In this document: one piece after another, positions 3,272-59,348 of the stretch
Layout: each line of letters starts with the position of its first letter
Position numbering within the stretch: the stretch's first letter is position 1
Assembly (NCBI GenBank): GCA_008933805.1
Contig: WBUH01000015.1
Coordinates: 1 to 64,000 of the forward strand
Reading direction: 5' to 3'
Length of the DNA stretch: 64,000 nucleotides
Origin: Bacteroidota bacterium
Lineage (GTDB): Bacteria > Bacteroidota > Bacteroidia > UBA8524
Program-made: the position numbers and the translations under genes
The notes under the pieces: model-generated
Databases searched by the model: none
What the model was told of the DNA's origin: nothing
What the model saw: the letters and a program-made list of their open reading frames with translations, nothing else

Positions 3272-3391
3272 CCGCTATATATTTGATTGTCCTGGGTGTG
3301 GATATTGGCTAAGGAGCACTTAAACCACACAACTTGCTTAGAAAAATCTGCAAATAGTTCGATAATGAAATGCTCCCCGCTACTAAATTTT

Positions 3392-3426
3392 AAACCCCTT
3401 TTCTTAACCGAGAAGGGTTTTTTCTT
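3392..3426 (+). terminator. Rho-independent terminator after copB
   Basis: AAACCCCTT and AAGGGTTT arms flank a short loop and are followed by a T-rich run, about 120 bp after the copB stop. The loop and right arm match the terminator at 31168-31198. Confidence 0.7.
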
Positions 3427-3490
3427 TTAGGTGCATTATTCAGTGTAATGTATTAAACGGCTGCTACTACTTGTGACTATTAACCACAAC

Positions 3491-3530
3491 AAAAAAGGGC
3501 TGAAACAATCAATGTTTCAGCCCTTTTTTA
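3491..3530. terminator. Bidirectional terminator between convergent genes
   Basis: A near-perfect hairpin has arms AAAAAGGGCTGAAACA and TGTTTCAGCCCTTTTT and a 5-nt loop, with A- and T-tracts on either side. It can end both copB transcription and the minus-strand RCC1-protein gene. Confidence 0.85.
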
Positions 3531-3545
3531 ATGTCGGTTGGCGGG

Positions 3546-6500
3546 TTACATTTTTATCACCCTGAACACAATCGGTAGGCCGTCCTTTGCCTCGATGGAG
3601 ATAAAATAAACGCCATTACTTTGGTTACTTAAATCAATAGCTGAACTGGAGGTAAGCGTGGTTTGATACACCTGTTGTCCCATTAGATTAGTTACCCGAA
3701 TTGACCTGATTTGGTCGTCATTATTTTCAAACCGGATATTAAATGTGCCGTTGCTTGGGTTTGGATACACCAAAATACCCGAAGCAAGGTTGTACTCACT
3801 TATACCATTTGGTTTAAGGGTTAAATCTAAGGTTACAACACTATCGCACCCTGTTGCATTAACTAAAGTATCGATGTAAACTTTTGAAGTAAACAAAGTA
3901 TCATAATTCCATACATAAAAATTATTGCTTACCGTTAAGCTAATCGAGCTGTCATTGGTACAATCAAAGTTTTGAATAGTGGTTGTGTCGCCCGCATAAA
4001 ATTCACTGAATTTTGTTACCGGTACTACTGCCTTCCAATTTTTATCGGCACTTATCCATTTTGCGGTAATCGGACTGTGGATAATAGGCTCTCTTCCTCC
4101 GTTGGGCAGTTCGTGCATTTGCAGCACCGCCATTTGCATAGTTCCCGCTACGGTATCGTTTGAGATGGATGAGCCTGTACTTTGTTTATACAGCTCAATA
4201 TCATCAAACGTATAGTAGAAGGTAACTTCCACTTTCAGGGTATCAATATTATCGGCATTAATTTGGGTGGCTCTTCTGATTAATTTATCGTTGGCAATAA
4301 CACTAACCACAGGGTAAACGGTTTGCGAAATCTTAGTATAGCCCGGTGAGGTTCCCCCCAAGCTGTCGGCAATGTCAATAAGTTTCTCGCAGTTGTTGGC
4401 GTCATAGTATTTAATGGTTAACCCATCTTTTTGTTCCCCTTCAGAAGCACCTGAACCGGCTGCATTTTTTAGTCCGGTAGGATTAGTTACTCCAAAAGTA
4501 AACAGGGTTGAATCCGTTCCATAGGGAGTAGTTATTTTCACTTGGTAGGTTTGCGGCGCAGTTGCTTTTACAGGAGTACCTTCAATTTGTCCGGTGGTAG
4601 AATTGTACCATAACCCTTCCGGCAACTTGGGCGTAATTTGATAGCTCGCTCCAAACACCCTCAGAATCCTGTTTTGTCCTCTGTCTGCCACCCAAAACTG
4701 ATAAGCACTGCCAAAAGGAGTTGTTATAATTCCTACAGGGGTTACCGGTTTTATAGTAGATGTAAGTGAGGTATCAATATAATTTGTTGGGGAGCCATCT
4801 GAGTTAAGATAACTCTGGCCCGTACCAATCACGCCCGTAGTTGATGAACTAACTGTAAAGAAACTGAACAAGGTATCAGCGCTGATGAAATCTAAAGCCA
4901 TTCCTGCGGTAGCGGCAGAATCCACCAGATACTCGTTTTTATAATCCGGCGTGATTCCTGAAGGAGGATACAAGATTCTTGAGTGTAACGTGCTATTTGT
5001 TGGGTTTGCCAAAAGTGCCCGTTTATTTCCATAAAAATTATCTATGCTCATTGAAGTAGCCGGCGGTTCAGGGTAGGAGGGATATAAGTTAGAATTAGAG
5101 AACAGATCGTTATCAAAAGTATTTATACCGGTAATCAAATTTCCTGAACTTCGCTGCGCATCAATTAAAAATAGGTTTTCGGGATACGAAGTAGGGTCTA
5201 CAGGTGTAGTAAAAACAAGTTGATTGGCAGTGGTACTTTGCCATAATACAGATTGGGTATTTAGCAGTGTTCCGGTGCTATCGCATTTATAAATTTTACC
5301 ATCCCCGTTAAAAAGGTAAACATTACTATTATCATCTGCCGCAAAAGCCTTAATACCTGAAATGTTTAGATTGGGGTAGCATGAAGTAAGTTTACCATCA
5401 AAACCATAACGTGCAATGGCGTCATTATCATTTAATACAAAAACTGCATTAGAGTTTTTAGTAATTGCTTTGGGGTTATTTACCTGTATACTGTTATCTA
5501 CATGAACCGTAAACACGGGATTTGAACCACTGATATTGGGTGTTACATTAAGATTGCTTCCCAAACAAACACTTGTAGGAAAATTACTCATGTCAACAGT
5601 GGGTGGGTCAGGAGGGGCGCAAATTTCTCCAATATACTGGGGTTCTGTTTGATTAATTTTGTTACCTAAGCCCAATTGCCCATTTTTGTTATAGCCACAA
5701 GCCCATATACTGCTGTTATTCTTCACAAACAAAGAATAGATAGATCCGGCAAAAATAGAAGTAATACCGGTTAGGTTTTTTACCTGTACCGGAATAAATT
5801 GGCTTACATTGTTTCCTATTCCCAATTCTCCATATATATTATTTCCACAAGCCCAAACTGTGCCGTCATTTTTCAAAAACAAGCAATGTTTATCTCTAGT
5901 AGAAATAGCTTTTACTCCATTTAAATTGGGTACTTGGGTTGGAGAAATAACTAACCCTGCTTTACCAATCCCGGCTTGTCCACACGTATTCTCACCCCAG
6001 TACCAAACTGTACTGTCGTTTTTCAGAAATAATGTGGACCAATCCCCGGAAGATATTGCTATAACGCCGTTTAAACCGCTAAGAAGTTCAGGTGTGGGAC
6101 GTTCAGTATCCTCGATATGATTTTTTCCGCAGGCCCAAACTGTGCCGTCATTTTTTATAAAAAAAGAACTGTGTACTCCTGCTACTATTGCTTTAACACC
6201 TGTAAGATTGGGTATTTGTGCGGGAACCTTTTGGTTAATATAGTTGCCAATTCCCAATTGCCCTGTATTATTTATTCCGCAAGCCCAAACTGTGCTGTCA
6301 TTTTTCAAAAACAATGAATGATTTTCTCCGGCAGCAATAGCAATAATTCCGGTCAAACCATTTATCATAACCGGCTCATTGGGGGGGGTGAGATTGTCAA
6401 TTCCCAGTTGTCCATAAAAAACACTACCACAACCCCATACTGTACCGTCATTTTTTAAATAAAGATTAAAAAATTGACCGCATTCAATTGCAGTAATATC

Positions 6501-6701
6501 GGTAAAATTTGGAACCGGCTCCGGCAATATTTTTCTTAAATGGTTACCGATACCCAATTGACCGGCCGAATTATCACCAAACGCCTTTAGGGTTCCGTCG
6601 GGACATAAAGCAAGGGAATGATGGTGGCCACCGCTCACTTGCTGCCCGAAAACAAAACTGCACGAGACCAGTGCTATAATTGAAAAAAGTGTTTTTAGCA
6701 T
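3546..6701 (-). CDS. Secreted RCC1-repeat (beta-propeller) protein with T9SS sorting domain
   Basis: Large secreted protein. The ATG at 6701 is chosen because it gives a clean signal peptide (MLKTLFSIIALVSCSFVFGQ); the longer frame upstream adds an unlikely 22-residue extension. About seven RCC1 repeats follow over the first 370 residues, each with the pattern LKNDGTVWACG...GQLGIGN, and should form a beta-propeller. Next come a low-complexity stretch of repetitive beta structure, an Ig-like He_PIG-type segment (LPEGLWYNSTTGQIEGTP), and a C-terminal type A T9SS domain (VYPNPSNGTFNIRF ... GVYFISIEA). The protein is therefore expected to cross the outer membrane by T9SS and be anchored or released. 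No catalytic motif is visible; binding or adhesion is an inference. Confidence 0.88.
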   Translation of the reverse strand: MLKTLFSIIALVSCSFVFGQQVSGGHHHSLALCPDGTLKAFGDNSAGQLGIGNHLRKILPEPVPNFTDITAIECGQFFNLYLKNDGTVWGCGSVFYGQLGIDNLTPPNEPVMINGLTGIIAIAAGENHSLFLKNDSTVWACGINNTGQLGIGNYINQKVPAQIPNLTGVKAIVAGVHSSFFIKNDGTVWACGKNHIEDTERPTPELLSGLNGVIAISSGDWSTLFLKNDSTVWYWGENTCGQAGIGKAGLVISPTQVPNLNGVKAISTRDKHCLFLKNDGTVWACGNNIYGELGIGNNVSQFIPVQVKNLTGITSIFAGSIYSLFVKNNSSIWACGYNKNGQLGLGNKINQTEPQYIGEICAPPDPPTVDMSNFPTSVCLGSNLNVTPNISGSNPVFTVHVDNSIQVNNPKAITKNSNAVFVLNDNDAIARYGFDGKLTSCYPNLNISGIKAFAADDNSNVYLFNGDGKIYKCDSTGTLLNTQSVLWQSTTANQLVFTTPVDPTSYPENLFLIDAQRSSGNLITGINTFDNDLFSNSNLYPSYPEPPATSMSIDNFYGNKRALLANPTNSTLHSRILYPPSGITPDYKNEYLVDSAATAGMALDFISADTLFSFFTVSSSTTGVIGTGQSYLNSDGSPTNYIDTSLTSTIKPVTPVGIITTPFGSAYQFWVADRGQNRILRVFGASYQITPKLPEGLWYNSTTGQIEGTPVKATAPQTYQVKITTPYGTDSTLFTFGVTNPTGLKNAAGSGASEGEQKDGLTIKYYDANNCEKLIDIADSLGGTSPGYTKISQTVYPVVSVIANDKLIRRATQINADNIDTLKVEVTFYYTFDDIELYKQSTGSSISNDTVAGTMQMAVLQMHELPNGGREPIIHSPITAKWISADKNWKAVVPVTKFSEFYAGDTTTIQNFDCTNDSSISLTVSNNFYVWNYDTLFTSKVYIDTLVNATGCDSVVTLDLTLKPNGISEYNLASGILVYPNPSNGTFNIRFENNDDQIRSIRVTNLMGQQVYQTTLTSSSAIDLSNQSNGVYFISIEAKDGLPIVFRVIKM

Positions 6702-6823
6702 AGAATAATTTATTTGAAAAAATTGGCACAAATTAAAGCGAATGTCTTCCATAATGCAATACTCCAAAAAGACATTTTAAATGTAAAAAAACCTGTATTT
6801 AGCTTATTTTCACAGAAAAAAAA

Positions 6824-7888
6824 TTGGAAACCAACTTCTCCCATATCATTTCAGGCTGGTTAAAAAAATTTCAGCGTTTTAAGGTGACCTATAAGAAAGG
6901 CAGCTATCACCTAGCTAATTTGTTCCACTCTCCTGAGACTATGATAGATAGTTTTGACCAGATGCCTTTTTGCAAGCATGATAGAGAAAAAAAACGCTTA
7001 ACTACTAACACTATCTTTTTACGAGCCGGTATGTATTATTCCAACCCCGAAGAAGGATTTTGGATAATAGTATCCGAATTACATTTTAAAAAAAATGTGT
7101 TAATGCGAAATCTGTACGATAAAGAACTACCGTTGGAGTATCACTTCCTCAATATTCACTTCAAATCAACTAAGGTGGTAAGTAAATCATTGGTAAACGG
7201 TATGGTTATGAAGGACAAAACTTGGTCTATGTTCAAAGCCGGGCACTCCCTAACAGAGTATCACTTCAAAAACTCAGAAGAGCGGAATGTCACACTTTTC
7301 TTTACTGACCAGTGGCTTCGCAAGCAAAAAGAAGCTAACCCGGTTTTTGATAATCCTAAGCTGGCCTCTTTCTTTAGCTCTGCTAATACCTATATGGTAT
7401 TGGACGAAACGGAATCGGTCTATGAGCAGTTATGGGAACAAATGATAGAGTTGGCAATAGACAGCGTAAACACCAATCAAGAGTCAATTAAACAAACTGC
7501 TTATACTGTATTCCGTAATTTTATAGGGAAAATGGATGCTGAAATCATTTCAGATAACCATTACGAACTGAATGACACGGATCGGAAAAACATTCAACGG
7601 GCTGAACAATTTTTAAATGATAAATTGTTCGGTGATTTTCCGGGTATAGAAAAAGTCGCACGCAAAGTGGGAATCTCGCCCACCAAGCTAAAGAATGATT
7701 TTAAGAGTATGCACAGCACAACACTTTATCAATACTTTAGCTCCAGGCAAATGAAGGCTGCACACGAACTTCTTTTGCAAAAAAAATACTCTGTTAAAGA
7801 GGTATCCACTTTTTTGGGGTACGAGAATGCAAGTAAGTTTTCTGCCAAATTTCAAAAAGAACTGGGTAAACTGCCTTCGCAGGTGTAA
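6824..7888 (+). CDS. AraC-family transcriptional regulator
   Basis: DNA-binding regulator of 354 residues with no signal peptide. The C-terminal ~100 residues form two AraC-type helix-turn-helix units: the first around GIEKVARKVGISPTKLKNDF, the second around SVKEVSTFLGYENASKFSAKF. The N-terminal ~230 residues have no recognisable cupin signature and probably sense a ligand. The only initiator without an upstream in-frame stop is TTG at 6824 (a TAG lies at 6800-6802); ATT at 6806 is a less likely alternative. It is divergent from the RCC1-protein gene across 122 bp, so it may control that gene, itself, or both. The regulated pathway is unknown. Confidence 0.88.
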   Translation: METNFSHIISGWLKKFQRFKVTYKKGSYHLANLFHSPETMIDSFDQMPFCKHDREKKRLTTNTIFLRAGMYYSNPEEGFWIIVSELHFKKNVLMRNLYDKELPLEYHFLNIHFKSTKVVSKSLVNGMVMKDKTWSMFKAGHSLTEYHFKNSEERNVTLFFTDQWLRKQKEANPVFDNPKLASFFSSANTYMVLDETESVYEQLWEQMIELAIDSVNTNQESIKQTAYTVFRNFIGKMDAEIISDNHYELNDTDRKNIQRAEQFLNDKLFGDFPGIEKVARKVGISPTKLKNDFKSMHSTTLYQYFSSRQMKAAHELLLQKKYSVKEVSTFLGYENASKFSAKFQKELGKLPSQV

Positions 7889-8083
7889 TTCTACTTAGGT
7901 TGTGTAAGCAATAATTCACTTGATAATAAAGGAAAAGTAAGCACATTATTTTTCTATAACACAAGCACAAACATTTAGAGTCTGCTTTTTTGAGCTTTAT
8001 GTAATTCGGCTCATTAGTTTGCTGGCCCCCGACTGTACTATTACATAGCAATAGAAGACCTTTTTTTGAATTGGTATTACAAT

Positions 8084-8114
8084 AAAAATGCCTGCTTGTT
8101 TAAGCAGGCATTTT
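8084..8114. terminator. Bidirectional terminator
   Basis: AAAATGCCTGCTT and AAGCAGGCATTTT arms flank a 4-nt loop, with A- and T-runs on both sides. It lies between the convergent AraC-type regulator and OmpA-like genes. Confidence 0.85.
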
Positions 8115-8141
8115 ACCTTGTTTTTTTACTGAAGCTAAATT

Positions 8142-10163
8142 CTATTTGGCAAGAATATCAATCACTACAGTACGGTTGTATGATCGTTCTTCAGGATACT
8201 TGTTTTCAAACAGTGCTTTGCTTTCGTCTTCACCGTATCCCTGCACCTCAAACGTAACATCGGTTCGCCCTGCCTTTGCCAGGCTTTTCTCAATTATATC
8301 CTTCACTTCGTTTGCACGAGCAAGAGATAATTTTTTATTATATTCATTATCGCCAATAATATCAGAGTATCCTTGTATTATAACTCTCCCTCCCTTTGTT
8401 ATTTTTGGGGTTACTATTTCAGTAAGGTATTTTTCATAAAGGGTGATAGCTTTTGCATCATTAAACTCAAAAATCACACTGTAGCGCATACCCTCCTCAT
8501 TTTTAGGAGGGGTCCAAAGCACTATATGCACAGTGGTGTCTTTAGTCAGCGTTTTTCCGCTTTCAGTTTTGCCTATCAGGACTATCTTATAATCACCTTC
8601 GGCACGTGTGCCTAATATTGACTTACCCGGTAGGTTTACTTTTTGCTGAGTGTATGGGCCAAAATTCTGAACTTTTCCTTTTTCGTCCGTTACTTCAAGC
8701 GACCACGATTTATATGGCTCGTTATTGCCAGCAACATCAAAAGAAACATAGCTGCTAACCGGCGCATCGGTAAGTGGTAGTATTTCTACAGGTTTCAAAG
8801 GTGCATCGGGTCCACTCTGAAACTCCATAAGCATCTCAGGAGAAGAGCTTTCTATAGAAACACGACGGTCTCCTTCTTCAAGCAATTCAAGCTCTTGTGT
8901 TGCTCCCGGCTGTGTTGAAGGGATTTTTGGCTTGTCACGTCCTTCAGTAGTAATTCTTGATGGATTAATATCGAAAATATCAACAAGGTATTTCTTCACT
9001 GCCTCTGCCATATCTTTACCATCCTGTTGCCCAAGTTCAGATGAGCCGACCAGTGCAATAGTTGATGAAGGGTTTTTCTGCATACGGTTGCCTACAATAT
9101 TCAGCACATTGTAATATACAATCATCTGCCTTTCTGAGCGACCTGAAGGTCTTTTCGGTATGAATACCTCAAGTTGGTCTTCATTAAAATCCTTTACTTC
9201 TTTCTTTTTTAGCAAAACATAGCGGTCTGAGATTTCGGTAGAACCTTTATCAAAGTATACATAGTTGCGCAACGGGAATGTTTCTCTTACCCTGCGTTCA
9301 AGGGGCGCATTTTTGGGCGAGTTTACTGTAAGCCTTGCGGTTTGTGCAATAACCGGAGATGGTGTTGTTGCCTGTACCGGATTTATCTTGCGCCCGCAAC
9401 CTATTTTAAATGCAATGCCTGCCCTAATTGTCTCAACATTCCAGGTTTCTATAGAGCGTGGTGCCTGCCCAAATGATGGCTGGAAAGAAACAAACGGAGC
9501 CAGCACGTACTGGGTCTTTTGGTTTTGTGAGTTCAATGGTATATCATATCCCGCGCCAATCTGCATAGAAAGCAGCATTGAGTTCACATCGCTCAAATCA
9601 CCCTTCATGTCGGGGTTTTCTGCCTGACCGGGATAGTTTGGATTAGTGCCTTGCTTGTAGGTGAATGATTTTGCTAAGTTGAAAGCCAGTCTTGGACCGC
9701 CAAAAATGTAAAAGTGTTTTTTAAACGGTGCAAAGCGCAGGCTTGGTTCAACAGTTATATAGCTAAGTTTAGAGGTTAAATCAGCAGGGCAGTTGCACGG
9801 CGTTGTTATCTGTTTAAACTTTCCATAGCGGCTGTCATAACCTATTTGAAACATTCCGCCAAAGTTTGAGTTTGCAGGAGTGTATTCTATCAACGGTGCC
9901 ACGAATAAACCAGCTCCGTTGCCGTTGCCAAAAGCCTTTGGTACGGTTAAATCGGCATTCAGTTTTTGGGTATTTCCACTGTAAAAATTAAAATTAACAC
10001 CGGCTGCTGCTCCAAACCACCACGATGGTTTGGTATACTTGGCAATCTCTTGCCCCCTCAGCGGGGTTTGAATCAACATCACCATCAGCAATCCTAATGT
10101 AAGGGCTTTCAGAATATATGAAGGGTACATTAGTATTGACTGTTTATTATAGTTTGTAATCAT
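8142..10163 (-). CDS. Outer-membrane protein with OmpA-like peptidoglycan-binding domains
   Basis: Envelope protein of about 673 residues. The ATG at 10163 is used; a second ATG at 10130 gives an equally good signal peptide (MYPSYILKALTLGLLMVML). The N-terminal ~240 residues look like an outer-membrane beta-barrel (aromatic, alternating strands). A first OmpA-like module follows around YFDKGSTEIS ... IALVGSSELGQQDGKDMA, then an Ig-like linker, and a C-terminal OmpA domain (VIIQGYSDIIGDNEYNKKLS ... YNRTVVIDI) expected to bind peptidoglycan. It lies 11 bp after the ice-binding-like lipoprotein gene, so the two are probably cotranscribed and may form a surface complex. Having two OmpA-like modules in one chain is less usual. 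Confidence 0.85.
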   Translation of the reverse strand: MITNYNKQSILMYPSYILKALTLGLLMVMLIQTPLRGQEIAKYTKPSWWFGAAAGVNFNFYSGNTQKLNADLTVPKAFGNGNGAGLFVAPLIEYTPANSNFGGMFQIGYDSRYGKFKQITTPCNCPADLTSKLSYITVEPSLRFAPFKKHFYIFGGPRLAFNLAKSFTYKQGTNPNYPGQAENPDMKGDLSDVNSMLLSMQIGAGYDIPLNSQNQKTQYVLAPFVSFQPSFGQAPRSIETWNVETIRAGIAFKIGCGRKINPVQATTPSPVIAQTARLTVNSPKNAPLERRVRETFPLRNYVYFDKGSTEISDRYVLLKKKEVKDFNEDQLEVFIPKRPSGRSERQMIVYYNVLNIVGNRMQKNPSSTIALVGSSELGQQDGKDMAEAVKKYLVDIFDINPSRITTEGRDKPKIPSTQPGATQELELLEEGDRRVSIESSSPEMLMEFQSGPDAPLKPVEILPLTDAPVSSYVSFDVAGNNEPYKSWSLEVTDEKGKVQNFGPYTQQKVNLPGKSILGTRAEGDYKIVLIGKTESGKTLTKDTTVHIVLWTPPKNEEGMRYSVIFEFNDAKAITLYEKYLTEIVTPKITKGGRVIIQGYSDIIGDNEYNKKLSLARANEVKDIIEKSLAKAGRTDVTFEVQGYGEDESKALFENKYPEERSYNRTVVIDILAK

Positions 10164-10174
10164 AGTTTTAATAA

Positions 10175-12190
10175 TTAAGGCTTATTGATAATATTCGTGT
10201 TAGTAAGCACTACCGAGCCGTTTTGAACAAGCATACGACCATTGGCCGTTGCGCCGGAGTTCATGGCTATTGAAGTTAAGGCAAGTATAGTGCCTTGAAA
10301 TACTGTAAAATCTCCAATAGTAGCAGAACTGCCCGTTTGCCAAAATATATTTTTTGCTTGCGCGCCGCCAGTCAGTATAACATTACCTCCTGCGCCTCCA
10401 ACTGTAGTAAATCCTGATGCCACTTGGAAAATCCATGTTGCATTAGGATCGCCTTGTGCGTCAAGAGTCAAATCGCCTGATTGTATTAAAAGCGTAGAGG
10501 TTGACTTGTAAATGCCCGGGGCAAGCGTTGTCCCGCCTATATCTCCTGATACTATTGCCGGGGCGGGCGTGGTTGCTCCTTCAGCAAAAAGATAAGCATC
10601 GGTTAGGTCTTGTTTAGCTTGTGTAAGTGTTGCAGCTATACCCGGTGGGTTGGCATCGTCAGAAGCATATATAGCTCCGTTTACAACAATTCCGGGGGGA
10701 AATCCTGTAACGGATGAACGAATACCCGGACTAATGCCTACATCCATGTCGTTAATTATGCTAAACCCTGCATTATTACTTACACCTACACCAGCCATAA
10801 TACCAAACGGCTCTACCGATTTAAGATTAACAACTCCCGGGCCGGCCGGATTTTGAGTAGTAAAGCTCCATACATAGTCGTTTGCCAATGGCGTGCCTGT
10901 TGTGTTTTTAGCTCCGGTGGTAATAGTTGCCGTATAGGTACTGCCCGAAGAAAGATTAGATGTTGGATTGAATGTCGCAGTTGAGCCTGAGTAAGACACC
11001 AAACCGGCAATGTTTGTAGTGCCTTGTTTTAATGTAAACGTAGTTGAATTGATAGTTAACGCATCCATGGCCATATTAAATGTGGCTGAGATAGTTTTGT
11101 TAACCGTAACCCCTGTGGCGTTGTTGGCAGGGTCAGTAGAGTTTACGATAGGAGCAACAACATTACCCGTTGTAAATGTCCATTCGTATTCATTGGCAAG
11201 CGGTGTGCCCGAAGGATTCTTTGTCCCTGTGGTTATTGTGGCTGTATAAGTTCCTCCAAGTGCAAGGTTTACCGATGGTGTAAAAGATGCCGTTGTGCCA
11301 TTGTACGTAACGGTTCCGGTAATAGGGTTAGCGCCTTGTTTTAGCATGAAAGTTGCATTATTTACAGTGGCAGCATCCATAGGCATACTGAAGTTAGCCT
11401 GGATTACTTTGTTAATAAATACTCCGGTGGCGTTATCTGCCGGGTCGGTAGAGGTAACGGTTGGTGCCACGGTTGTTCCTGTAGTAAACGTCCAAACATG
11501 ATTGGCTGCCATTGCTGTACCCGCTTTGTTTTTTGCGCTGTTAGTAATAGTAGCTGTATAAACGGTATTTGCAGCAAGCTGACTAATTGGTTTAAATGAT
11601 GCAGTTACGCCGTTATAAGAAACAGAACCCGCTATTGCTGTCGCTCCATTTCTAACAATAAAGGTGGTATCATCAATGGTTGATGAATCCATTGGCATAT
11701 TAAAAGTTGCAGTAATTGTTTTGTTTAGTGGCACTCCCACAGCATTGTTAGCCGGGTCTGTTGCGATAACCATTGGCATTAAACTATCGCCGGTGCTGAA
11801 TGACCAAACATAGTCGGCTTGCAAGGCACTACCCATCAAATCTCTTACTGATGCAGATATTTTTGCAGTATAAGTAGTGTTTGGAGCAAGTTTTACATTA
11901 GGGGCAAAACTTGCAGTAGCATTGGTTTCATCATACGATATTGTACCTGAAATTTGTGATGAGCCACTTATTGTAAATGAGGAAGAATTGATAGATTCTG
12001 ACTTCATTGCTTCATTAAATGAGGCAGTTATTATTTGCGTATTGGGTACATTGGTTGCCAAATCAGTAGGGTTGGTAGATGTTACCAATGGGCAAACCCC
12101 TGTAATTTCTGTGAACTTATCTTTTTTACATCCGCCAGCCAGTATAAGGAAGGCTGCAATTGAAATAGTCCATATTTTGTTTATTTGCAT
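10175..12190 (-). CDS. Lipoprotein with four Big_5 Ig-like repeats and a DUF3494 ice-binding-like domain
   Basis: Surface lipoprotein. The ATG at 12190 is chosen because it gives MQINKIWTISIAAF followed by the lipobox LAGGC; the frame extends 14 codons further upstream without signal character. Four tandem bacterial Ig-like (Big_5) repeats of about 103 residues follow, each with an ATxxPxNxATGV start and an xWxFTT end. The C-terminal ~200 residues are a DUF3494 ice-binding-type beta-solenoid (DANPPGIAATLTQAKQDLTD ... GDLTLDAQGDPNATWIFQ ... GTILALTSIAMNSGATANGR). Such domains bind ice in psychrophiles, but many homologues come from non-cold species and may act as adhesins. It is followed closely by the OmpA-like gene. 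Ice binding itself is not shown here. Confidence 0.88.
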   Translation of the reverse strand: MQINKIWTISIAAFLILAGGCKKDKFTEITGVCPLVTSTNPTDLATNVPNTQIITASFNEAMKSESINSSSFTISGSSQISGTISYDETNATASFAPNVKLAPNTTYTAKISASVRDLMGSALQADYVWSFSTGDSLMPMVIATDPANNAVGVPLNKTITATFNMPMDSSTIDDTTFIVRNGATAIAGSVSYNGVTASFKPISQLAANTVYTATITNSAKNKAGTAMAANHVWTFTTGTTVAPTVTSTDPADNATGVFINKVIQANFSMPMDAATVNNATFMLKQGANPITGTVTYNGTTASFTPSVNLALGGTYTATITTGTKNPSGTPLANEYEWTFTTGNVVAPIVNSTDPANNATGVTVNKTISATFNMAMDALTINSTTFTLKQGTTNIAGLVSYSGSTATFNPTSNLSSGSTYTATITTGAKNTTGTPLANDYVWSFTTQNPAGPGVVNLKSVEPFGIMAGVGVSNNAGFSIINDMDVGISPGIRSSVTGFPPGIVVNGAIYASDDANPPGIAATLTQAKQDLTDAYLFAEGATTPAPAIVSGDIGGTTLAPGIYKSTSTLLIQSGDLTLDAQGDPNATWIFQVASGFTTVGGAGGNVILTGGAQAKNIFWQTGSSATIGDFTVFQGTILALTSIAMNSGATANGRMLVQNGSVVLTNTNIINKP

Positions 12191-12796
12191 ATTTTGTTTT
12201 CTACCGGTAAAAGAGTTTTTAGCGGTATACAAAGGTTAATCTGTAGATTTTAGCAATTGTTACATAACAAAATCCATAAGTTACATAATTCACTCATTTT
12301 GTGTCGATTATTGCAAAAATAGGACGATGAGCCCGTAACTTTTTTAATCCGGTTTGCAGTGGCAGGGTTATCAGTGTATATGGATGAGTGTAATAAAGCG
12401 TTCTATTTTCTCTAAAAATCCCAATAATAGGTTCGATAATCTGCTTGTTCAGGCTGAAAAACCCTTAAACCCCTTGCATAGCAGGTTTTTTTTCAGATTT
12501 TAGAACATAAGCACATTTGTAGCACAACAGTTTTGTATATAACCGCTACTTTTCATTTTTGAGAATATTTCATAATCTATGATTCATCCGAAACTATAGT
12601 TTAAAGCATTGCCAAATTGGTTGGGCATGAAGCCTAAAGCAAGTTTGCTATCGTTTTCACAAAGCAAATAGTGATAGACGTATAACACAAAATGTCTTAT
12701 CGGGCTTTCTTCTAAAACTCTAATGTTTTAATCTTGTATGTTAACAGAGCATTAACTTTAATGCATATTAACAAACCTAAGAGTTGATTTAAGATT
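12191..12796. other. Intergenic region between two divergent secreted-protein genes
   Basis: About 600 bp without a convincing gene. It is AT-rich and should carry the promoters of the flanking divergent genes, but no -33/-7 pair stands out. A weak inverted repeat (CTGAAAAACC ... GGTTTTTTTTCAG) lies at 12454-12496, just after a GTTCGATAAT that also occurs before the terminator at 3392. Nothing else was recognised. Confidence 0.5.
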
Positions 12797-14854
12797 ATGA
12801 AACACATTTTACTTACGCTAACTTTACTAATGTATTGTGGCCTCAGTGCACAGAACTATTCAGGCGGATCGGGTACTTTAAACGACCCTTTCAAAATAGC
12901 CACCAAATACGACTTAAAATATTTAAGCGAAAACTCCAGCGAATGGAGCAAGCACTTTATTCAAACAGCTAATATATTGTTTGACTCCTCTGACTTTGAA
13001 ACCAACGGCGACTTCTACAACAACGGAAAGGGTTTTATTCCCATTGCTCTTGGAAGCACTTTTACCGGAAGCTACGATGGCAATGGTAATATAGTTGACG
13101 GGTTAAAAATTTATATATTAACGGACAACAAGATAGGATTGTTTAGTTGGGGTCAAAAAGCAACCATAAAAAACTTAGGAGTAACCCATTGTTTAATTTA
13201 CGGCAGGTCTGATGTTGCTGGCTTATTGGGTGCGGGCAAGGATACAACAGTTATTTCAGATTGCTATGTAACCGGAAAAATTGTGTCAGTCGAAAATAAT
13301 GCCGGCGGCTTGGTAGGCACACAATTACGCGGCTCTGTAACCAATTCATTTTCATCCGCTGATATAGTATGTGCGGAATATAATAGTGGCGGTTTATTGG
13401 GACAATTTTTCGGTTCAGCAAACAGTGGTACACTTAAAAACTGTTATGCCACAGGCAATGTAGCAGGTAACAACCAAGCAGGAGGGTTAATTGGTGCTGC
13501 TGATCTTTTAAAGATAGAAAACTGTTATGCCACCGGTAAAGTTACAGGAAGCTCAACCTTAGGGGGCTTTGTTGGTTATATGGTAAATACTATGACGGTA
13601 ACTAACAGTTTTTGGGATGTGCAATCATCTACTCAAAATGTCAGTGTAGGAAGCGGAGCTAGCTTTCCCAGCGAGGAAGCAACCCCCAAAACCACTACAG
13701 AACTGCAAACTCTTAGTACTTTTATCAACGCAGGTTGGGACTTTTCGGGAGAAAGCACAAACGGAACGGATGATGTTTGGCAGCTTATTACTTCTGGTTG
13801 TTTAAGCGGATTGGGATACCCTACTCTTAATTATATCGACAATAGCGCACCCGTTATAAATAATACCTCTGGTGCTACTGCTTGTGCAAACAGGAAAACC
13901 ACCCTAACCGCTACCAGTAATGCAAAACTATTAGACTGGTACACAACACAAACAGGCAATGTAATTGCGGGAAGAGGAGCCAATTTTTTAACTCCGCCAA
14001 TCAGCAGCAATACAAGTTTCTGGGTACAAGCTACTAATGGTAATTGTTCTACTGCAAGGGTTGAAGTTGTGGCTACTGCCATTCAGCCTACCACAAGCAC
14101 TATATCACCCGCTGTTTGCGGCAGCTATACTTCTCCCAGCGGCAAAGTATGGACGGTATCTAACACCTATACCGATACGATACCCAATTCTATTAATTGT
14201 GACTCTGTAATTACTATTAACCTTACAGTAAACCAAGCTACTACAAGCAGTATATCACCCACAGCTTGTGGCAGCTATACTTCTCCCAGCGGTAAAGTTT
14301 GGACAGTATCTAACACTTATACCGATACGATACCCAATACCAATAGTTGTGATTCTATAATAACTATAAACCTAACCATTAGCACCGTAAACAATGCAGT
14401 AACCGTAGTATCAAACGCCACTTTACGTGCCGATGCAGCTGGAGCAAAATACCAATGGATAGACTGTAATAATGGCAACCAACCCATAGCAGGAGACACA
14501 AACCAGAATTTTGCAGCAACCGCCAATGGTAATTACGCAGTTATTGTAACAGAAAATGGCTGTACCGATACTTCAGCTTGTGTAGCGATTACCAGCGTGG
14601 GAATAAATGAGTTCATATTTAAGGATATGATAAGCATATATCCTAACCCAAGTAGGGGTGATGTAAACATTAGTTTAGGTGAGATAACCAATGCTACCGT
14701 AGAAGTATATAATGCTTATGGTCAATTAGTATTTAAAGAAAGTAAAATAGATGAACCTAATTTTGGGTTTAAGCTTAATGCAGCGGCAGGCATATATCTA
14801 GTTAGGGTAAGGGCAGAAGGAAACGAAGCCTGTTTCCATTTGGTTAAAGAGTAG
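12797..14854 (+). CDS. Secreted GLUG-repeat protein with T9SS sorting domain
   Basis: Extracellular protein of 685 residues with a signal peptide (MKHILLTLTLLMYCGLSAQ). The N-terminal half has GLUG-type repeats (GGLVGTQLRGSVTNSF, GGLLGQF, GGLIGAADLLKIENCYATGK), which normally form a beta-solenoid found in adhesins and peptidase-like surface proteins. An Ig-like segment follows, then two nearly identical 50-residue modules (CGSYTSPSGKVWTVSNTYTD) and an 'ADAAGAKYQWIDC' Ig-like module. It ends in a type A T9SS domain (SIYPNPSRGDVNISLG ... GIYLVRVRAEG). Adhesion or matrix binding is inferred. The strong terminator at 14911 makes it a single-gene unit. Confidence 0.87.
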   Translation: MKHILLTLTLLMYCGLSAQNYSGGSGTLNDPFKIATKYDLKYLSENSSEWSKHFIQTANILFDSSDFETNGDFYNNGKGFIPIALGSTFTGSYDGNGNIVDGLKIYILTDNKIGLFSWGQKATIKNLGVTHCLIYGRSDVAGLLGAGKDTTVISDCYVTGKIVSVENNAGGLVGTQLRGSVTNSFSSADIVCAEYNSGGLLGQFFGSANSGTLKNCYATGNVAGNNQAGGLIGAADLLKIENCYATGKVTGSSTLGGFVGYMVNTMTVTNSFWDVQSSTQNVSVGSGASFPSEEATPKTTTELQTLSTFINAGWDFSGESTNGTDDVWQLITSGCLSGLGYPTLNYIDNSAPVINNTSGATACANRKTTLTATSNAKLLDWYTTQTGNVIAGRGANFLTPPISSNTSFWVQATNGNCSTARVEVVATAIQPTTSTISPAVCGSYTSPSGKVWTVSNTYTDTIPNSINCDSVITINLTVNQATTSSISPTACGSYTSPSGKVWTVSNTYTDTIPNTNSCDSIITINLTISTVNNAVTVVSNATLRADAAGAKYQWIDCNNGNQPIAGDTNQNFAATANGNYAVIVTENGCTDTSACVAITSVGINEFIFKDMISIYPNPSRGDVNISLGEITNATVEVYNAYGQLVFKESKIDEPNFGFKLNAAAGIYLVRVRAEGNEACFHLVKE
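14089..14385 (+). repeat. 150-bp tandem duplication inside the GLUG-repeat gene
   Basis: Two copies of a 150-bp (50-codon) unit run in tandem; for example TATATCACCC starts at 14101 and again at 14251. The copies differ mostly at scattered, often silent, positions. Each encodes one 'SPxxCGSYTSPSGKVWTVS' module. Confidence 0.85.
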
Positions 14855-53795: not shown

Positions 53796-56700
53796 TTAAT
53801 AATCATAGCTGTTTCCTTTTCGCATCAGCATTGTTTTCTTCAACAGTATGGTAAACTGCTTTTCAACGCTGATATTTTCGTTAAACTTGTTATTAAAGCT
53901 GTTATTTATCAAGGTATTGGTATTTACTTTAGTAGTGTCATCGGGTTGTAGCCCGCACACCCCTGTGTACCAATTATCACCGCGTTCAGATTTATACTTG
54001 AAGAAGTACACCCAGCCCTTTTGCCCTTTAAACTCCACCATTCGCTTATCCAGCATTACAAAGGTATCAGCATACGATTCCTCTGCCTTAAACAGCGATT
54101 GCACTATCAGTTCTTGTGTTTCAAACTTCTTAGGAAAGCGTTCGCTTTGTTCAAGTGCCGCTAAGGTTTTATACAGTTTTGCCCGGTACAAGGTGTGTTT
54201 AGCAAACGGAGTAAACAAGCTGTCGGCCACTTTAATGTCGTTCCTAAGCATTTGGTTTATAATTGTGAGTTTTATATTCAGGTTGTTTAAGCCCATTAAC
54301 TTCTCATAAAACCCTTTTATTTTTTTGTCCTTATAAAAAGGCAATAAAGTACTCGAAAGATTCTCTAAATATTGGTTTGCGTAATAACTGCTATTAGTTC
54401 CGTTGCTTAAATCCTCACGGGTTTGGCGTTTAAGAGCAATCTTAGCTTCGGTTAGTAATTGCGGATACATATTTTTGTACACCTTGGGTTTAATCTGGCT
54501 GCTGTCAACCAATTTAGCCAGCAGTAACACCAACTCTTTCTTGTACTCTGTATAAGGCATTAACTGGAAGAAATCGGGATAAAACGATTTGCTCAGTTGC
54601 AGCGAATCGTCAAAATACCTGAAAATATCACTGGTATTATATTCTGAAACCAACGGAGTTTCTTCTAAAATAAGCTCACGTATCTTTTTATATGATTTTT
54701 CGGTTTTGATTGCTGCCATTGAATACAAGGCAGCCATTTGCAACGCCGAGGTATCGCCTGCTTTGTAATACAACGAGGTAAGGTAGTCCACATTTTCGGG
54801 CAGCTTTATTTCGCGTATTTTATTAATGATTTTTACTTTATAATCTATGTAGTTTTTCTTGCGGCTGTCGCAGGTATCAATCAGCGTTTTCCATGCTTCA
54901 ATATCCTCAGGGAACAAATCCATCTGTCCCATTGATTCTAACGCCTGCGCCCTGTGCGCACTATCCCCGTTCAAATCATTTATGTACACATTGGCACGAC
55001 TGGTAAACAGGTTTTCACCCACTGTGGTATCGGGTAATGGCTCAAACGTGGCATAAAACGTTTTCAAAAATTCACTAGGGCCTTCCGCAGTATCATATTG
55101 GCTGGTAAGCGTGTATTTCACACTGTTTTTAATAATCACTTTACTCCATTTAACCACACTGCTTCCGGTATCGGCATATTTAGTTTCTACAGAAGTATAC
55201 CCGTCTTTGTGTTCAAGCTTACGATAACTGGTTATAAAATCAGAGTTATTGCCTGTGTTTTTCCAATATTTGGCTGAGTCTACGAGGTTATAATATTTTC
55301 CGTAGCGGTAATAATCAACATACACCCCGTTATAACTGTTAGGCGGGAAAAACGAAGCCGTTCTCGAGTCGCCTTTATGTTCTTTTACTTTTTTGGTGGT
55401 GTAACGCCCTTGAAAGTTCCCCGTTTTCTTAGGGGTATATCCTGTTTTAACCCTGAACAAAAGGGTAGAGTCTACGTACTCTTCGGCATTGGGGTAATCC
55501 CTCTGCATGATGGCAAAAGAATTAATGTAATTGTCTGCGGCTGTTGAATCTTTACTGTATTTACAAGCAATCGTATAATGTGTAGTGAGTTTAATGGTAA
55601 AGCGCACTTTCAATCGGTTACTGTCAGGAGTAAGGAACAAAATATCCAGTACAGGGCGGGTATTGTTGTAATAAAACTTACGGCTTATTTCTTCAAGGTT
55701 ATTATTGTCTAAAAACTCAAAAGCAATCCGCTCCACACGTATTGAGTCTTCTTCCAAAAACTTGCCCTGCGAAATATTCTGTTTAATTAAATAATACTGA
55801 TTACGGTTTTCAAAATCAATGGCACTGTACTCGTGGCCGGGCAACCATTTGCTAAAAACGGTAGTGTCGTTATAATACAATGGCGCATGGGGCATACGAA
55901 TGGTGAAAAGGCTATCGGGTGCATAAAAGTTTTGCCAGTTGGTTTTGGCGGGTACCTCTATCCGTATAGAGTTGAAAAAGCGTTCCGCCTCAGGTCCGTT
56001 TACATATTCACCATTACCTGCCAGTTTAAAAATAAAGATTTCGGCAGGGGTTACAAAAATCTGGTATCGTTGCAAGTGTCCGCCTTTGCGCGTGCGGTTG
56101 GTAATATCAAACCCTTCAAATCCAAACTTTGTAATCTTCTTTTGGCTCAATATTTCACCGGGTATGTTTTCATACAACAAACTGTCGATGGTTTTGTATA
56201 AGTACTGGTTATCGTTATTAAGCAACTCAGCAAATGTTTTAACACGCATCACACGGTAGTACGCACCGTTAATCATATCGGCACACAAATATTGCTTCGA
56301 CGTTTCGTTACCCGGAAACTCAAACAGCTTGCCGGGGGTTTCTACCTTGCAATACCCATCGAATGAGGTGTAAGGAGAAAACGTAACCCCAAAGCGAAGT
56401 GTATCCAGTTTTTTCTTTTGGTCGGCATCCCGTTCTCCGATAGTTACAGGGCGCACCGTGTAACCCATTTTGCGCAGCAATTCTATAATACCCTTTTCGC
56501 CCGGTAAATGGGCAGCCCCCACGCCAGTAAACAGGGTTTGGTCTTTCATAATAGAATCCATGCGGTTGGCCATGTTGATGTTTCTGCGGAATAGAATATG
56601 CTCAACAAACGCTTTGCTGGCACCTACCACATTTAGCGAGTCAAGCAAATCAAGGTCGCCTCGGCGATAAGCATCCTCCACCCTTTCACCAAACGAAAGC

Positions 56701-57320
56701 GGGTTGTCATCGTCGCCACTGTAGCGACTGCTACCGGGTATGTAATCCTCTGTTTGGTCGTCATTAGCCAAATCTTCATTTATCTGGTCAAGCTCTTCAA
56801 AACTTTCAAGACCTTTAAACCGTTTGTTTAGTTTTCTGGCTGTCTGAAAAATGTATAAATCCAGATAAGTATCTTCTTCAAAGTTGTCGGAGTATTCGTC
56901 GTTGCGGAACATTAGATAGTTCAGCACCTCTAAGTCGCTCGAAAGGGCAATTTTCAACGCCCTTTTCCGTTTTTCGGCAAGGTGCTTGGTGTGCCCTATA
57001 CCTCCTTCGTTATCTTTATCCCTGTAGTTCCAATGGTCTGATAAAACCGAAGGTTCATTTTCATAAATATAGTCAAGCCAAATGCGGGGGTCAATTTCCA
57101 ATGCGGCCATATCCACATTGTTCAGTGCGATGAAGAAAGAATCGCTTAAGTGAAACGCCACCTTATTGCTCACGTGCATGGTACCGTATAAGTACGATGG
57201 TTTTTTAAGCGAGTTGCCCGTAATTTCCCAAAGCAGTCCTTGGTATTTATTTTTCTTTTGCGCCACAGAGGGTAGGGCAATGGCAAGCAGCAACAAGGCA
57301 CACGTCAGGTATTTCTTCAT
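53796..57320 (-). CDS. TraB/GumN-domain protein with long C-terminal extension
   Basis: Exported protein of 1174 residues with signal peptide (MKKYLTCALLLLAIALPSVA). Residues ~25-300 form a TraB/GumN (Tiki-like) domain: LLWEITGNSLKKPSYLYGTM with the conserved GTMH, then AALEID, and finally GVGAAHLPGEKGIIELLRKM with GxxHLPG. Tiki/TraB proteins include metal-dependent proteases, and the His/Glu positions are present. The remaining ~850 residues are not recognised and look like repeated alpha/beta segments and helical HEAT-like stretches. Family members are usually about 300 residues, so this is a large fusion. Confidence 0.8.
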   Translation of the reverse strand: MKKYLTCALLLLAIALPSVAQKKNKYQGLLWEITGNSLKKPSYLYGTMHVSNKVAFHLSDSFFIALNNVDMAALEIDPRIWLDYIYENEPSVLSDHWNYRDKDNEGGIGHTKHLAEKRKRALKIALSSDLEVLNYLMFRNDEYSDNFEEDTYLDLYIFQTARKLNKRFKGLESFEELDQINEDLANDDQTEDYIPGSSRYSGDDDNPLSFGERVEDAYRRGDLDLLDSLNVVGASKAFVEHILFRRNINMANRMDSIMKDQTLFTGVGAAHLPGEKGIIELLRKMGYTVRPVTIGERDADQKKKLDTLRFGVTFSPYTSFDGYCKVETPGKLFEFPGNETSKQYLCADMINGAYYRVMRVKTFAELLNNDNQYLYKTIDSLLYENIPGEILSQKKITKFGFEGFDITNRTRKGGHLQRYQIFVTPAEIFIFKLAGNGEYVNGPEAERFFNSIRIEVPAKTNWQNFYAPDSLFTIRMPHAPLYYNDTTVFSKWLPGHEYSAIDFENRNQYYLIKQNISQGKFLEEDSIRVERIAFEFLDNNNLEEISRKFYYNNTRPVLDILFLTPDSNRLKVRFTIKLTTHYTIACKYSKDSTAADNYINSFAIMQRDYPNAEEYVDSTLLFRVKTGYTPKKTGNFQGRYTTKKVKEHKGDSRTASFFPPNSYNGVYVDYYRYGKYYNLVDSAKYWKNTGNNSDFITSYRKLEHKDGYTSVETKYADTGSSVVKWSKVIIKNSVKYTLTSQYDTAEGPSEFLKTFYATFEPLPDTTVGENLFTSRANVYINDLNGDSAHRAQALESMGQMDLFPEDIEAWKTLIDTCDSRKKNYIDYKVKIINKIREIKLPENVDYLTSLYYKAGDTSALQMAALYSMAAIKTEKSYKKIRELILEETPLVSEYNTSDIFRYFDDSLQLSKSFYPDFFQLMPYTEYKKELVLLLAKLVDSSQIKPKVYKNMYPQLLTEAKIALKRQTREDLSNGTNSSYYANQYLENLSSTLLPFYKDKKIKGFYEKLMGLNNLNIKLTIINQMLRNDIKVADSLFTPFAKHTLYRAKLYKTLAALEQSERFPKKFETQELIVQSLFKAEESYADTFVMLDKRMVEFKGQKGWVYFFKYKSERGDNWYTGVCGLQPDDTTKVNTNTLINNSFNNKFNENISVEKQFTILLKKTMLMRKGNSYDY

Positions 57321-57460
57321 ATATCAGAGATTTGTAATGTTAAAAGAACGCTTAAAATAGCTTTATCGTGCAAAGAACAAAAAAATGGTCAGTTTCTCAC
57401 AAAACAGCGCGTGTAACTTTTGTTTTTTCGATAAATAGAATTGAGAACGAGGGAATTATT

Positions 57461-57480
57461 ATCGGACAAACTTGTCCGAT
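57461..57480. promoter_or_regulatory. Palindromic operator of the Rrf2 regulator
   Basis: ATCGGACAA-AC-TTGTCCGAT is a perfect 9-bp inverted repeat with a 2-nt centre. It overlaps the -33 box of the promoter just downstream, the position expected for repression by the adjacent Rrf2 protein. Confidence 0.75.
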
Positions 57481-57502
57481 AATAATCAGAAACCTACCTT
57501 TG
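57472..57502 (+). promoter_or_regulatory. Promoter of the Rrf2-globin-kynA operon
   Basis: TTG at 57472-57474 lies in the right arm of the palindrome and is followed after 20 bp by TACCTTTG at 57495-57502, an exact Bacteroidota -7 match. The start site would fall about 8-10 nt before ATG 57517, giving a very short leader. Confidence 0.7.
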
Positions 57503-57516
57503 CCACAACAAAAAGT

Positions 57517-57948
57517 ATGTTTTCAAAAGCTTGTGAATATGCAATAAGGGCAACGCTCTATTTAGCAACAAAGGCTGAACAGAGTCAGCGGGCAGGTCTT
57601 AAGGATATCGCCGAAAGGATAGATTCGCCCGAAGCGTTTACGGCTAAAATATTACAACAGTTAGTTAAAAGCGGTATCGTTACATCTATTAAAGGCCCCG
57701 CAGGGGGCTTTGCTATTGAGCCTGAAAGAGTGCAAACCATCACCTTACAGCACATTGTAAAGGCAATAGACGGGGACTCGATATACGTAGGTTGCGGTTT
57801 GGGACTGAAGGCTTGCTCTGAGAAAAACCCTTGCCCGCTGCATAATCAGTTTAAGGCCATACGCGACGGTTTGCGCGAAATGCTGGAAACCACGACTCTT
57901 TACGACTTGAGTAACGGATTGAAAACAGGAATAACCTTCTTAAAATAA
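57517..57948 (+). CDS. Rrf2-family iron-sulphur regulator (NsrR/IscR-like)
   Basis: Regulator of 143 residues. ATG 57517 (MFSKACEYAIRATLYLATKA) is chosen because the longer frame would include the promoter; the start matches the family. The winged helix-turn-helix is followed by three Cys at about 93, 100 and 106 (VGCGLGLKAC, NPCPLH), spacing C-X6-C-X5-C, as in cluster-binding Rrf2 proteins. Its first neighbour is a truncated globin, so a nitric-oxide- or oxygen-responsive NsrR-like role is likelier than IscR. A palindrome overlaps its own promoter, indicating autoregulation. Confidence 0.9.
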   Translation: MFSKACEYAIRATLYLATKAEQSQRAGLKDIAERIDSPEAFTAKILQQLVKSGIVTSIKGPAGGFAIEPERVQTITLQHIVKAIDGDSIYVGCGLGLKACSEKNPCPLHNQFKAIRDGLREMLETTTLYDLSNGLKTGITFLK

Positions 57949-57974
57949 GAGTTGAAAATGAAAGGAGCATGGAG

Positions 57975-58364
57975 ATGAAAAAGGAAATTGAAACGCTTGA
58001 AGACATACAATTGCTGGTAAATACATTTTACGACCGAGTGAGGGCGGATGAATTATTAGGCCCCATTTTTAATGGTGTGATACAAAACCGCTGGCCTGAA
58101 CATTTGGAAAAGATGTACCGCTTTTGGCAAACGGTGTTGCTGGAAGAGCACACTTATTTAGGCAGCCCCTTTGCTCCACATGCCAAACTTGAGGTAGCCA
58201 AAGAACATTTTGACCGTTGGCTGGCCCTTTTTGAAAACACAGTTGATGAACATTTTACAGGCTTAAAAGCACAGGAGGCCAAATGGCGCGGAAACCGCAT
58301 GGCCGAAATGTTTTTACACAAGATAGAATACATTAGAGTTAACAAAACAACAACCATACTATGA
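57975..58364 (+). CDS. Group III truncated haemoglobin
   Basis: Haem protein of 129 residues. The ATG at 57975 is favoured over the ATG 6 bp upstream because AAAGGAG at 57961-57967 is then at a normal 7-nt spacing. Truncated-globin features include FYDRVRADELLGPIFNG, HLEKMYRFWQTVLL, and the proximal His in KEHFDRWLALF at about 78. Group III globins are thought to handle nitric oxide, peroxide or redox chemistry. It is between an Rrf2 regulator and tryptophan dioxygenase, and its stop overlaps the kynA start by 4 bp (ATGA). Confidence 0.92.
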   Translation: MKKEIETLEDIQLLVNTFYDRVRADELLGPIFNGVIQNRWPEHLEKMYRFWQTVLLEEHTYLGSPFAPHAKLEVAKEHFDRWLALFENTVDEHFTGLKAQEAKWRGNRMAEMFLHKIEYIRVNKTTTIL

Positions 58365-59269
58365 CTGACCAAGAACAACTTATTGCGGCCATTAACGAAA
58401 AGTACAAAGCCCTTGGCGAGAACCCCGACACTTATTTGAAAGGCCTGCTGCAAGCAAAGCCGATAAACTACTGGGACTATATTGAGGTGGATACCTTACT
58501 CTCATTGCAAAAGCCTAAAACAGGGTTTAAGGATGAGGAAATTTTTATCATGTACCATCAGGTTACTGAGCTGATGTTGAAACTGGTGCTGCACGAGGTG
58601 AAACAAATTTGTGCAGAAACACAGCCCGATGAATCGTTTTTGATTACCAAAATAAGCCGCATCAACCGCTATACGGCCATGCTGATAAACTCATTTGATA
58701 TAATGAAAGACGGCATGGACTATGATGACTATAACACCTTCCGTACGGCGTTGGCGCCTGCAAGCGGTTTTCAAAGCGCACAATTCCGCTTTATTGAAAT
58801 TTACTGCACCCGTTTAGAAAATCTTGTAAACGAGGCAGGTAAACAGCATTTGCAGGCTAACCCAAGTATTGAAGAATGTTTTGGGCATATTTATTGGAAA
58901 GATGCGGGGCTTAATCGCAAAACGGGTGAGAAAACCCTTACTCTTCGACAGTTTGAGGAGAAGTATCATGCCCAATTCGTGGCGCTGGCCTACCAAATGA
59001 AGGGGAATACAGTAGAAGATAAGTTTAATGGCATCAGCAACCCCTCGGAAGAGTTGAAACAAAAATTCAGAGAGTTTGACCGTTTGTATAACATTGAATG
59101 GCCGTTGGTGCACCTAAATACCGCAAAACACTACTTAGACAGTAAGGGAGAGAATAAAGCCGCTACAGGCGGTTCTGAATGGAAGAAATACCTTCACCCG
59201 CAGTTTCAGCAACGCAAGTTTTTCCCTTCGTTGTGGAGCGACACTGAGAAACAACATTGGGGCGAATAA
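58361..59269 (+). CDS. kynA: Tryptophan 2,3-dioxygenase
   Basis: Haem enzyme of 302 residues opening the indole ring of tryptophan with oxygen to give N-formylkynurenine, the first step of the kynurenine pathway. The family motif EIFIMYHQVTELMLKLVLHE carries the distal active-site His at about 66. Later motifs include RTALAPASGFQSAQFR and the tail ATGGSEWKKYL. The proximal haem His is likely in TAKHYLDSK. It overlaps the globin gene, so its expression is probably tied to the Rrf2 signal. No other kynurenine-pathway gene is visible in the window. Confidence 0.94.
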   Translation: MTDQEQLIAAINEKYKALGENPDTYLKGLLQAKPINYWDYIEVDTLLSLQKPKTGFKDEEIFIMYHQVTELMLKLVLHEVKQICAETQPDESFLITKISRINRYTAMLINSFDIMKDGMDYDDYNTFRTALAPASGFQSAQFRFIEIYCTRLENLVNEAGKQHLQANPSIEECFGHIYWKDAGLNRKTGEKTLTLRQFEEKYHAQFVALAYQMKGNTVEDKFNGISNPSEELKQKFREFDRLYNIEWPLVHLNTAKHYLDSKGENKAATGGSEWKKYLHPQFQQRKFFPSLWSDTEKQHWGE

Positions 59270-59314: not shown

Positions 59315-59348
59315 AAACCCCGCTGCAGAAGAGTATCCGCAGCGGGGC
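59315..59348 (-). terminator. Terminator between convergent kynA and the giant T9SS gene
   Basis: CCCCGCTGC / GCAGCGGGG arms with a 12-nt loop; a T-run follows on the minus strand, so it mainly ends the gene at 59378. Confidence 0.8.

Follow-up and report, generated by a model that had tools for sequence, protein, structure and literature searches.

A candidate Rrf2 operator at the promoter of a globin and tryptophan dioxygenase operon of Bacteroidota, and its possible link with nitric oxide damage and NAD supply

The window, i.e. the whole stretch of 64,000 nucleotides of Bacteroidota DNA analysed here, carries consecutive genes for a predicted repressor of the Rrf2 family, a group III truncated globin and a tryptophan 2,3-dioxygenase (TDO), preceded by a promoter whose −33 element is embedded in a candidate operator. 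Sequence comparison among relatives shows the operator, its overlap with the promoter, the conserved ligands of the regulator, the linkage of the genes, neighbours concerned with nitric oxide (NO) and Fe-S repair, and the downstream enzymes of the kynurenine route. We lean, by a modest measure, towards an autoregulated response to NO/Fe-S damage, in which an NsrR/IscR-like repressor would derepress defence functions together with a haem-dependent quinolinate/NAD route bypassing NadA. Beyond what a preliminary description of this DNA had noted, the TDO is a paralogue, the gene cluster is widespread in Bacteroidota, and operators of the same type also precede genes for RIC, an iron-sulfur repair protein, and RIC-nadA-nadB operons.

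Operator and promoter of the operon

The candidate operator (57455-57486, without strand assignment) is a perfect inverted repeat, ATTATTATCGGACAA-AC-TTGTCCGATAATAAT. In a repeat search, its arms (57455-57469 and 57472-57486) are 15 nt each, 100% complementary and separated by a 2-nt centre. The perfect palindrome holding the −33 TTG, first placed at 57461-57480, is thus real but larger than described, the earlier positions being its core. The TTG of a Bacteroidota-type promoter can be read from the sequence at 57472-57474 (+ strand), within the right arm. As had also been described, a −7 element, TACCTTTG (57495-57502, +), is found 20 nt past the TTG, at a position conserved in homologues. 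The arrangement TTG-N20-TACCTTTG fits the pattern of Bacteroidota sigma promoters, TTG-N19-20-TAnnTTTG. Judging from the promoter position, the transcription start and a very short leader would lie within 57503-57516 (+), the 14 nt that separate TTTG and ATG. The leader would then measure about 8-10 nt, and the positions of the elements agree with the near-leaderless promoter previously proposed. In homologous promoters, the distance from TAnnTTTG to ATG is 4-24 nt, with a median of 18.

With up to 3 mismatches allowed, the operator is matched once in the window, for 0.01 expected, and once in the 4.29-Mb genome. Upstream of orthologous Rrf2 genes, the motif GGAYAANNTTRTCC, with the core GGAYAAnnTTRTCC, is present at 0-2 mismatches in 28 of 34 cases, as compared with 1.5% of mononucleotide-shuffled upstream regions. 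Its position is typically 43-63 nt 5′ of the ATG and, in 26 of the 28 promoters with a good match, the right half-site is followed by N19-22-TAnnTTTG. The motif was partly derived from these same sequences, so that the mismatch counts favour it, but the fixed position and the promoter spacing are independent of that. The recurrence of operator and geometry in 28 of the 34 promoters is far beyond chance. The motif, its fixed place and the promoter spacing, kept across orthologous Rrf2 promoters, argue strongly, by comparison, for autoregulation through an operator that would occlude the −33 element. The idea that an Rrf2 operator over this element controls the globin and the dioxygenase is supported by the comparison with relatives.

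The genes for the regulator (143 aa, 57517-57948, +) and the globin (131 aa, 57969-58364, +) are separated by 20 bp, without overlap, whereas those for the globin and the TDO (302 aa, 58361-59269, +) share 4 bp (ATGA, 58361-58364), the TDO start being inside the globin stop codon. The overlapping genes of the preliminary description are thus restricted to the second pair; the identities that it gave to all three products are borne out by the profile and structure matches reported below. Upstream, a gene for a 1174-aa protein is divergent from the operon (53796-57320, −). Downstream, a strong hairpin resembling an intrinsic terminator (59317-59348, −), with its T-run on the minus strand, serves the convergent gene, and the operon may stop there too.

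The regulator, the globin and the signal

The regulator belongs to the Rrf2 family (PF02082, 91.9 bits for a cut-off of 30, E 4.9e-26). It remains below the equivalog cut-offs of NsrR (36.5 of 182 bits) and of IscR (59 of 207.55 bits). Its putative ligands, C93-x6-C100-x5-C106-x2-H109, align with the three cysteines and the histidine of IscR, C92/C98/C104/H107, and E7 may be added to them. The C-x6-C-x5-C-x2-H arrangement is invariant in the 35 orthologous Rrf2 proteins scoring above 140 bits (35/35). This set resembles that of IscR as much as that of NsrR. Among solved structures, the best profile matches are 6y45 and 6hsd, recorded only as Rrf2-family regulators, which we take to be probably RsrR. 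Rrf2 proteins are also known as sensors of oxygen, iron or Fe-S supply.

In other bacteria, NsrR is an NO-sensing repressor of genes for an NO-detoxifying globin and for Fe-S repair (PMC4432287, PMC2577008). The Rrf2 fold, three cysteines and autoregulation, predicted here, would be common to NsrR and the window protein. Unlike NsrR, the latter has, besides its low equivalog score, a cysteine spacing of x6/x5 with an additional C-x2-H, the operator GGAYAAnnTTRTCC and a TDO among its predicted targets. With IscR, a regulator responding to Fe-S status, it shares the aligned ligand positions, but its predicted targets are globin, TDO and RIC, and no gene was recognised as isc or suf among the listed neighbours of the Rrf2 loci. 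The redox regulator RsrR of Streptomyces venezuelae is likewise an Rrf2 protein with an operator at its own promoter (PMC5015018); it is actinobacterial and its ligand spacing differs.

The globin is recognised by Bac_globin (E 1.8e-7), and among solved structures it comes closest to the group III globin of Campylobacter (2ig3, E 5e-15). Residues Y21 (B10), H45 (E7), H71 (F8) and W84 (G8) are kept, as in Ctb of Campylobacter jejuni, with which it also has an association with NO stress in common. Unlike Ctb, it stands behind an Rrf2 operator and is linked with a TDO.

Related clusters occur in unclassified Bacteroidota MAGs as well as in Acidiluteibacter, Arenibacter, Pseudozobellia and Flagellimonas. 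The recurring order is Rrf2, an optional cbb3-like oxidase pair, an optional small membrane protein, group III globin, a protein family labelled SMP, TDO, RIC and hemerythrin, individual loci holding subsets of it. RIC scores above the TIGR03652 cut-off. The oxidase pair is CcoN/CcoO-like and could act as an NO or an oxygen reductase; naming its subunit an NO reductase was abandoned, as the position of the cross-linking tyrosine is retained in the alignment. Variants of this pair that carry an additional cytochrome c domain are found at eight loci (L036, L052, L117, L118, L140, L151, L293, L294; L and G numbers denote our loci and genomes), mostly adjoining Rrf2. The SMP family (L040:8394-8828) and a COX4-like family (L040:7691-8005), for which no Pfam or NCBIfam match was obtained, are small, conserved membrane proteins and recurrent companions of globin and TDO.

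From these elements we infer repression itself, the signal, the activity of the TDO and the purpose for NAD. A dimeric Rrf2 repressor carrying an Fe-S cluster on Cys93, Cys100 and Cys106, with His109 and possibly Glu7, would bind the palindrome and cover the −33 box, thereby keeping RNA polymerase off. NO, oxidation or cluster loss would disturb the cluster and release the protein, so that Rrf2, globin and dioxygenase would be made together. The globin would then dioxygenate or bind NO. NO is the likely signal, as suggested by the gene neighbourhoods. Alternatively, the regulator might sense oxygen or Fe-S status, in the manner of IscR or RsrR; the operon would tune oxygen-dependent tryptophan degradation and oxygen handling at low oxygen, and NO would be incidental. 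The alignment of C-x6-C-x5-C-x2-H with the IscR ligands is in line with such a role, a cbb3-like oxidase, hemerythrin and a group III globin would suit oxygen handling, and TDO requires oxygen. However, RIC and NO-reductase-like genes recurrently adjoin this regulator family, and both the score below the IscR cut-off and the listed neighbours, none of them recognised as isc or suf, speak against it, so that we judge an oxygen sensor rather unlikely.

The dioxygenase and its clade

The TDO of the window matches Pfam Trp_dioxygenase with 84.9 bits (cut-off 34.9, E 8.7e-24). It falls short of the TIGR03036 equivalog cut-off (99.7 of 390.7 bits), but the canonical TDO of the same genome does so as well (108.3 bits); this cut-off therefore cannot separate Bacteroidota TDOs. 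Positions F51, H55, Y113, R117, S124, H240 and T254 of Xanthomonas TDO, which we take to be the catalytic/haem and Trp-contact residues, correspond to F62, H66, Y124, R128, S135, H251 and T269, and all catalytic and haem residues are retained. When an AlphaFold monomer is compared with known structures, those of TDOs come first, but over their whole length the structures superpose poorly (TM about 0.5), which is not surprising for an intertwined tetramer, and this match was not counted as proof.

Kynureninase (kynU) and 3-hydroxyanthranilate dioxygenase (HAAO) are above cut-off in 18 of the 18 genomes examined that possess this TDO clade or the cluster, and the view of the TDO-like protein as an orphan devoid of a pathway was discarded on this ground. 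Furthermore, the clade TDO is the sole TDO match in six near-complete genomes (G083, G203, G077, G038, G141, G069). The protein is thus most likely a working TDO. The NAD route from tryptophan to quinolinate has been described in Bacteroidetes (PMC4217691). The TDOs of this route in Xanthomonas and Ralstonia (2nw7, 2nox) share with the window TDO all active-site residues and the presence of downstream enzymes in the genome; the window TDO differs in belonging to a separate clade, beside a canonical copy, and in its placement with NO/Fe-S repair genes. This close linkage to NO genes, and the changed chemistry of other haem enzymes of the TDO superfamily such as PrnB (PMC11791213), might suggest that the clade consists of haem proteins handling NO with the globin as partner, through NO dioxygenation or through nitration or nitrosation of tryptophan, rather than serving kynurenine synthesis. 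The full retention of the Trp- and haem-contact residues, and the six genomes that combine kynU and HAAO with a clade member as their sole TDO match, make this improbable.

The second, canonical TDO of the window's genome (G000) is encoded on another contig (G000:C12:56193-57080) and is 43% identical to that of the window. A TDO-family match exists in 234 of 295 genomes of the class, the window type (64-74% identity) in 16 others only. A tree of 111 TDO sequences has two sides (support 94), the window TDO standing apart from the canonical one. Among loci with enough context, Rrf2, globin, SMP or RIC lies beside the TDO in 42 of 65 on the window side versus 1 of 37 on the canonical side (Fisher p 8e-11), near relatives in these counts not being independent. 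As the sequences were sampled for their resemblance to the window protein, these fractions do not stand for population frequencies. On the tree, linkage must have been gained or lost several times at the least. In about a third of the loci of the window clade linkage is lost, in Aequorivita, Mesonia, Psychroflexus and others, and the TDOs of these three have unrelated gene contexts; regulation has probably been rewired in Aequorivita and Mesonia. Examples of clade TDOs outside the Rrf2 cluster are found in the Aequorivita group (L114, L126, L127, L129) and in Mesonia (L108, L123, L128, L134). Such clades, and the other TDO in the genome, could be accounted for by genomic hitch-hiking, a redundant TDO copy having settled 3′ of a globin and a regulator to which it has no functional tie. 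However, linkage, gene order and operator persist across many families despite protein divergence to about 60-75% identity, and we regard hitch-hiking as very improbable.

NadA, quinolinate supply and the operator at other loci

NadA, the quinolinate synthase, is a [4Fe-4S] enzyme, and its oxygen sensitivity has long been known (Gardner and Fridovich 1991, in the reference list of PMC4279996). The kynurenine route uses haem, flavin and PLP and no Fe-S cluster. In the damage response that we favour, the dioxygenase would open this route to quinolinate, and NAD synthesis would continue while NadA is damaged. We propose that, as Fe-S damage would both derepress the operon and disable NadA, the kynurenine route would take over. 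On the other hand, haem dioxygenases are inhibited by NO, which counts against TDO as an enzyme for times of NO exposure unless NO is removed first. In mammals, NO controls IDO1 and TDO activity via haem allocation (PMC10220489). The link between NO and TDO would thus be common to both cases, post-translational there and, by prediction, transcriptional here. Since NO acts on the mammalian enzyme, an NO-lowering globin may be proposed as a sensible partner of TDO; the preliminary description had suggested that the globin might protect or supply the dioxygenase.

The six genomes with a clade member as sole TDO all contain nadA (6/6), so that the clade TDO would provide, there at least, a conditional quinolinate route beside the aspartate route. 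The window's genome has both a second TDO and nadA; the operon is therefore not its only quinolinate route. A second TDO match, shown to be canonical for only part of the genomes, is absent in 6 of 10 nadA-containing genomes versus 0 of 6 complete genomes devoid of nadA (Fisher p 0.034; p 0.19 with two incomplete genomes included), a result no more than suggestive of strict complementarity of canonical TDO and nadA.

Good operator matches are also found 5′ of RIC-HHE (G083, L197), of RIC (G199, L283; G010, L285), of Rrf2-RIC-HHE (G078, L282) and of a cbb3-like pair (G002, L293). The operator likewise precedes Rrf2-RIC-nadA-nadB (G073, L238), Rrf2-RIC-P592-nadA-nadB (G038, L192) and RIC-P592-nadA-nadB (G141, L190). 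A weaker palindrome (score 8.2) belongs to Rrf2-COX4-globin-RIC-ferredoxin-HHE-kinase-P592-nadA-nadB (G077, L191), where ferredoxin and kinase were named by eye from the sequence. In the window's genome, another weaker palindrome, AATAAAAGACTATTATATCTTTTATT (score 15.6), precedes RIC-Rrf2b, which lies directly 3′ of nadA-nadB (order nadA-nadB-RIC-Rrf2b) and faces NorB/NorC-like genes. Linkage to RIC or Rrf2 is absent at the majority of the nadA loci sampled from the class. At 1-2 mismatches, genome-wide counts of the operator pattern equal those of a control pattern, with no enrichment; only promoters of chosen genes were therefore interpreted, on the strength of where the match lies in the promoter and of what the genes encode. 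An exact-core match at G000:C18:87074 (L077) was taken as chance, no promoter context being seen in the 3 kb inspected.

The preliminary description had linked kynurenine formation to NO or redox signals. RIC, hemerythrin and NO-reductase-like neighbours are consistent with NO/Fe-S damage, but the operators before RIC and RIC-nadA-nadB suggest that what matters is the supply of quinolinate and NAD, not kynurenine itself. The NAD role of the operon would thus follow from gene association. More broadly, it may be imagined, as a tentative extension, that Bacteroidota switch their de novo NAD synthesis through an Rrf2 regulon when NO or Fe-S damage occurs, a dedicated TDO isozyme bypassing NadA here and similar operators driving RIC-nadA-nadB repair-and-replace operons elsewhere. 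In the open literature searched, no bacterial TDO was reported to be controlled by Rrf2 or NO, nor was a link between NAD precursor synthesis and NO damage met. If true, NAD precursor synthesis would join the processes that bacteria protect against the destruction of Fe-S clusters by NO, many Bacteroidota would have a reason for keeping their second TDO, and a group of Rrf2 regulators with its operator would be defined for a phylum that seldom has flavohaemoglobin (PMC6950321). The proposal is directly testable in cultured carriers, among them Acidiluteibacter ferrifornacis and several Arenibacter species.

A separate recurrent RIC cluster (L284, L286, L288, L290), where the present operator was not found, combines a RIC of about 320 aa with a more distant Rrf2, a 107-aa protein, two further proteins (about 270 and 430-450 aa) and, in many cases, hemerythrin. 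At L189 (G000:C8:137000-156500, 2656-14302), a Crp/DNR-like regulator stands together with nadA-nadB, RIC, the second Rrf2 paralogue and NorB/NorC-like genes of convergent orientation. Finally, P592, which is conserved, about 592 aa long and without Pfam match, is located between RIC and nadA in L190, L191 and L192, and near nadA in G220 (L227).
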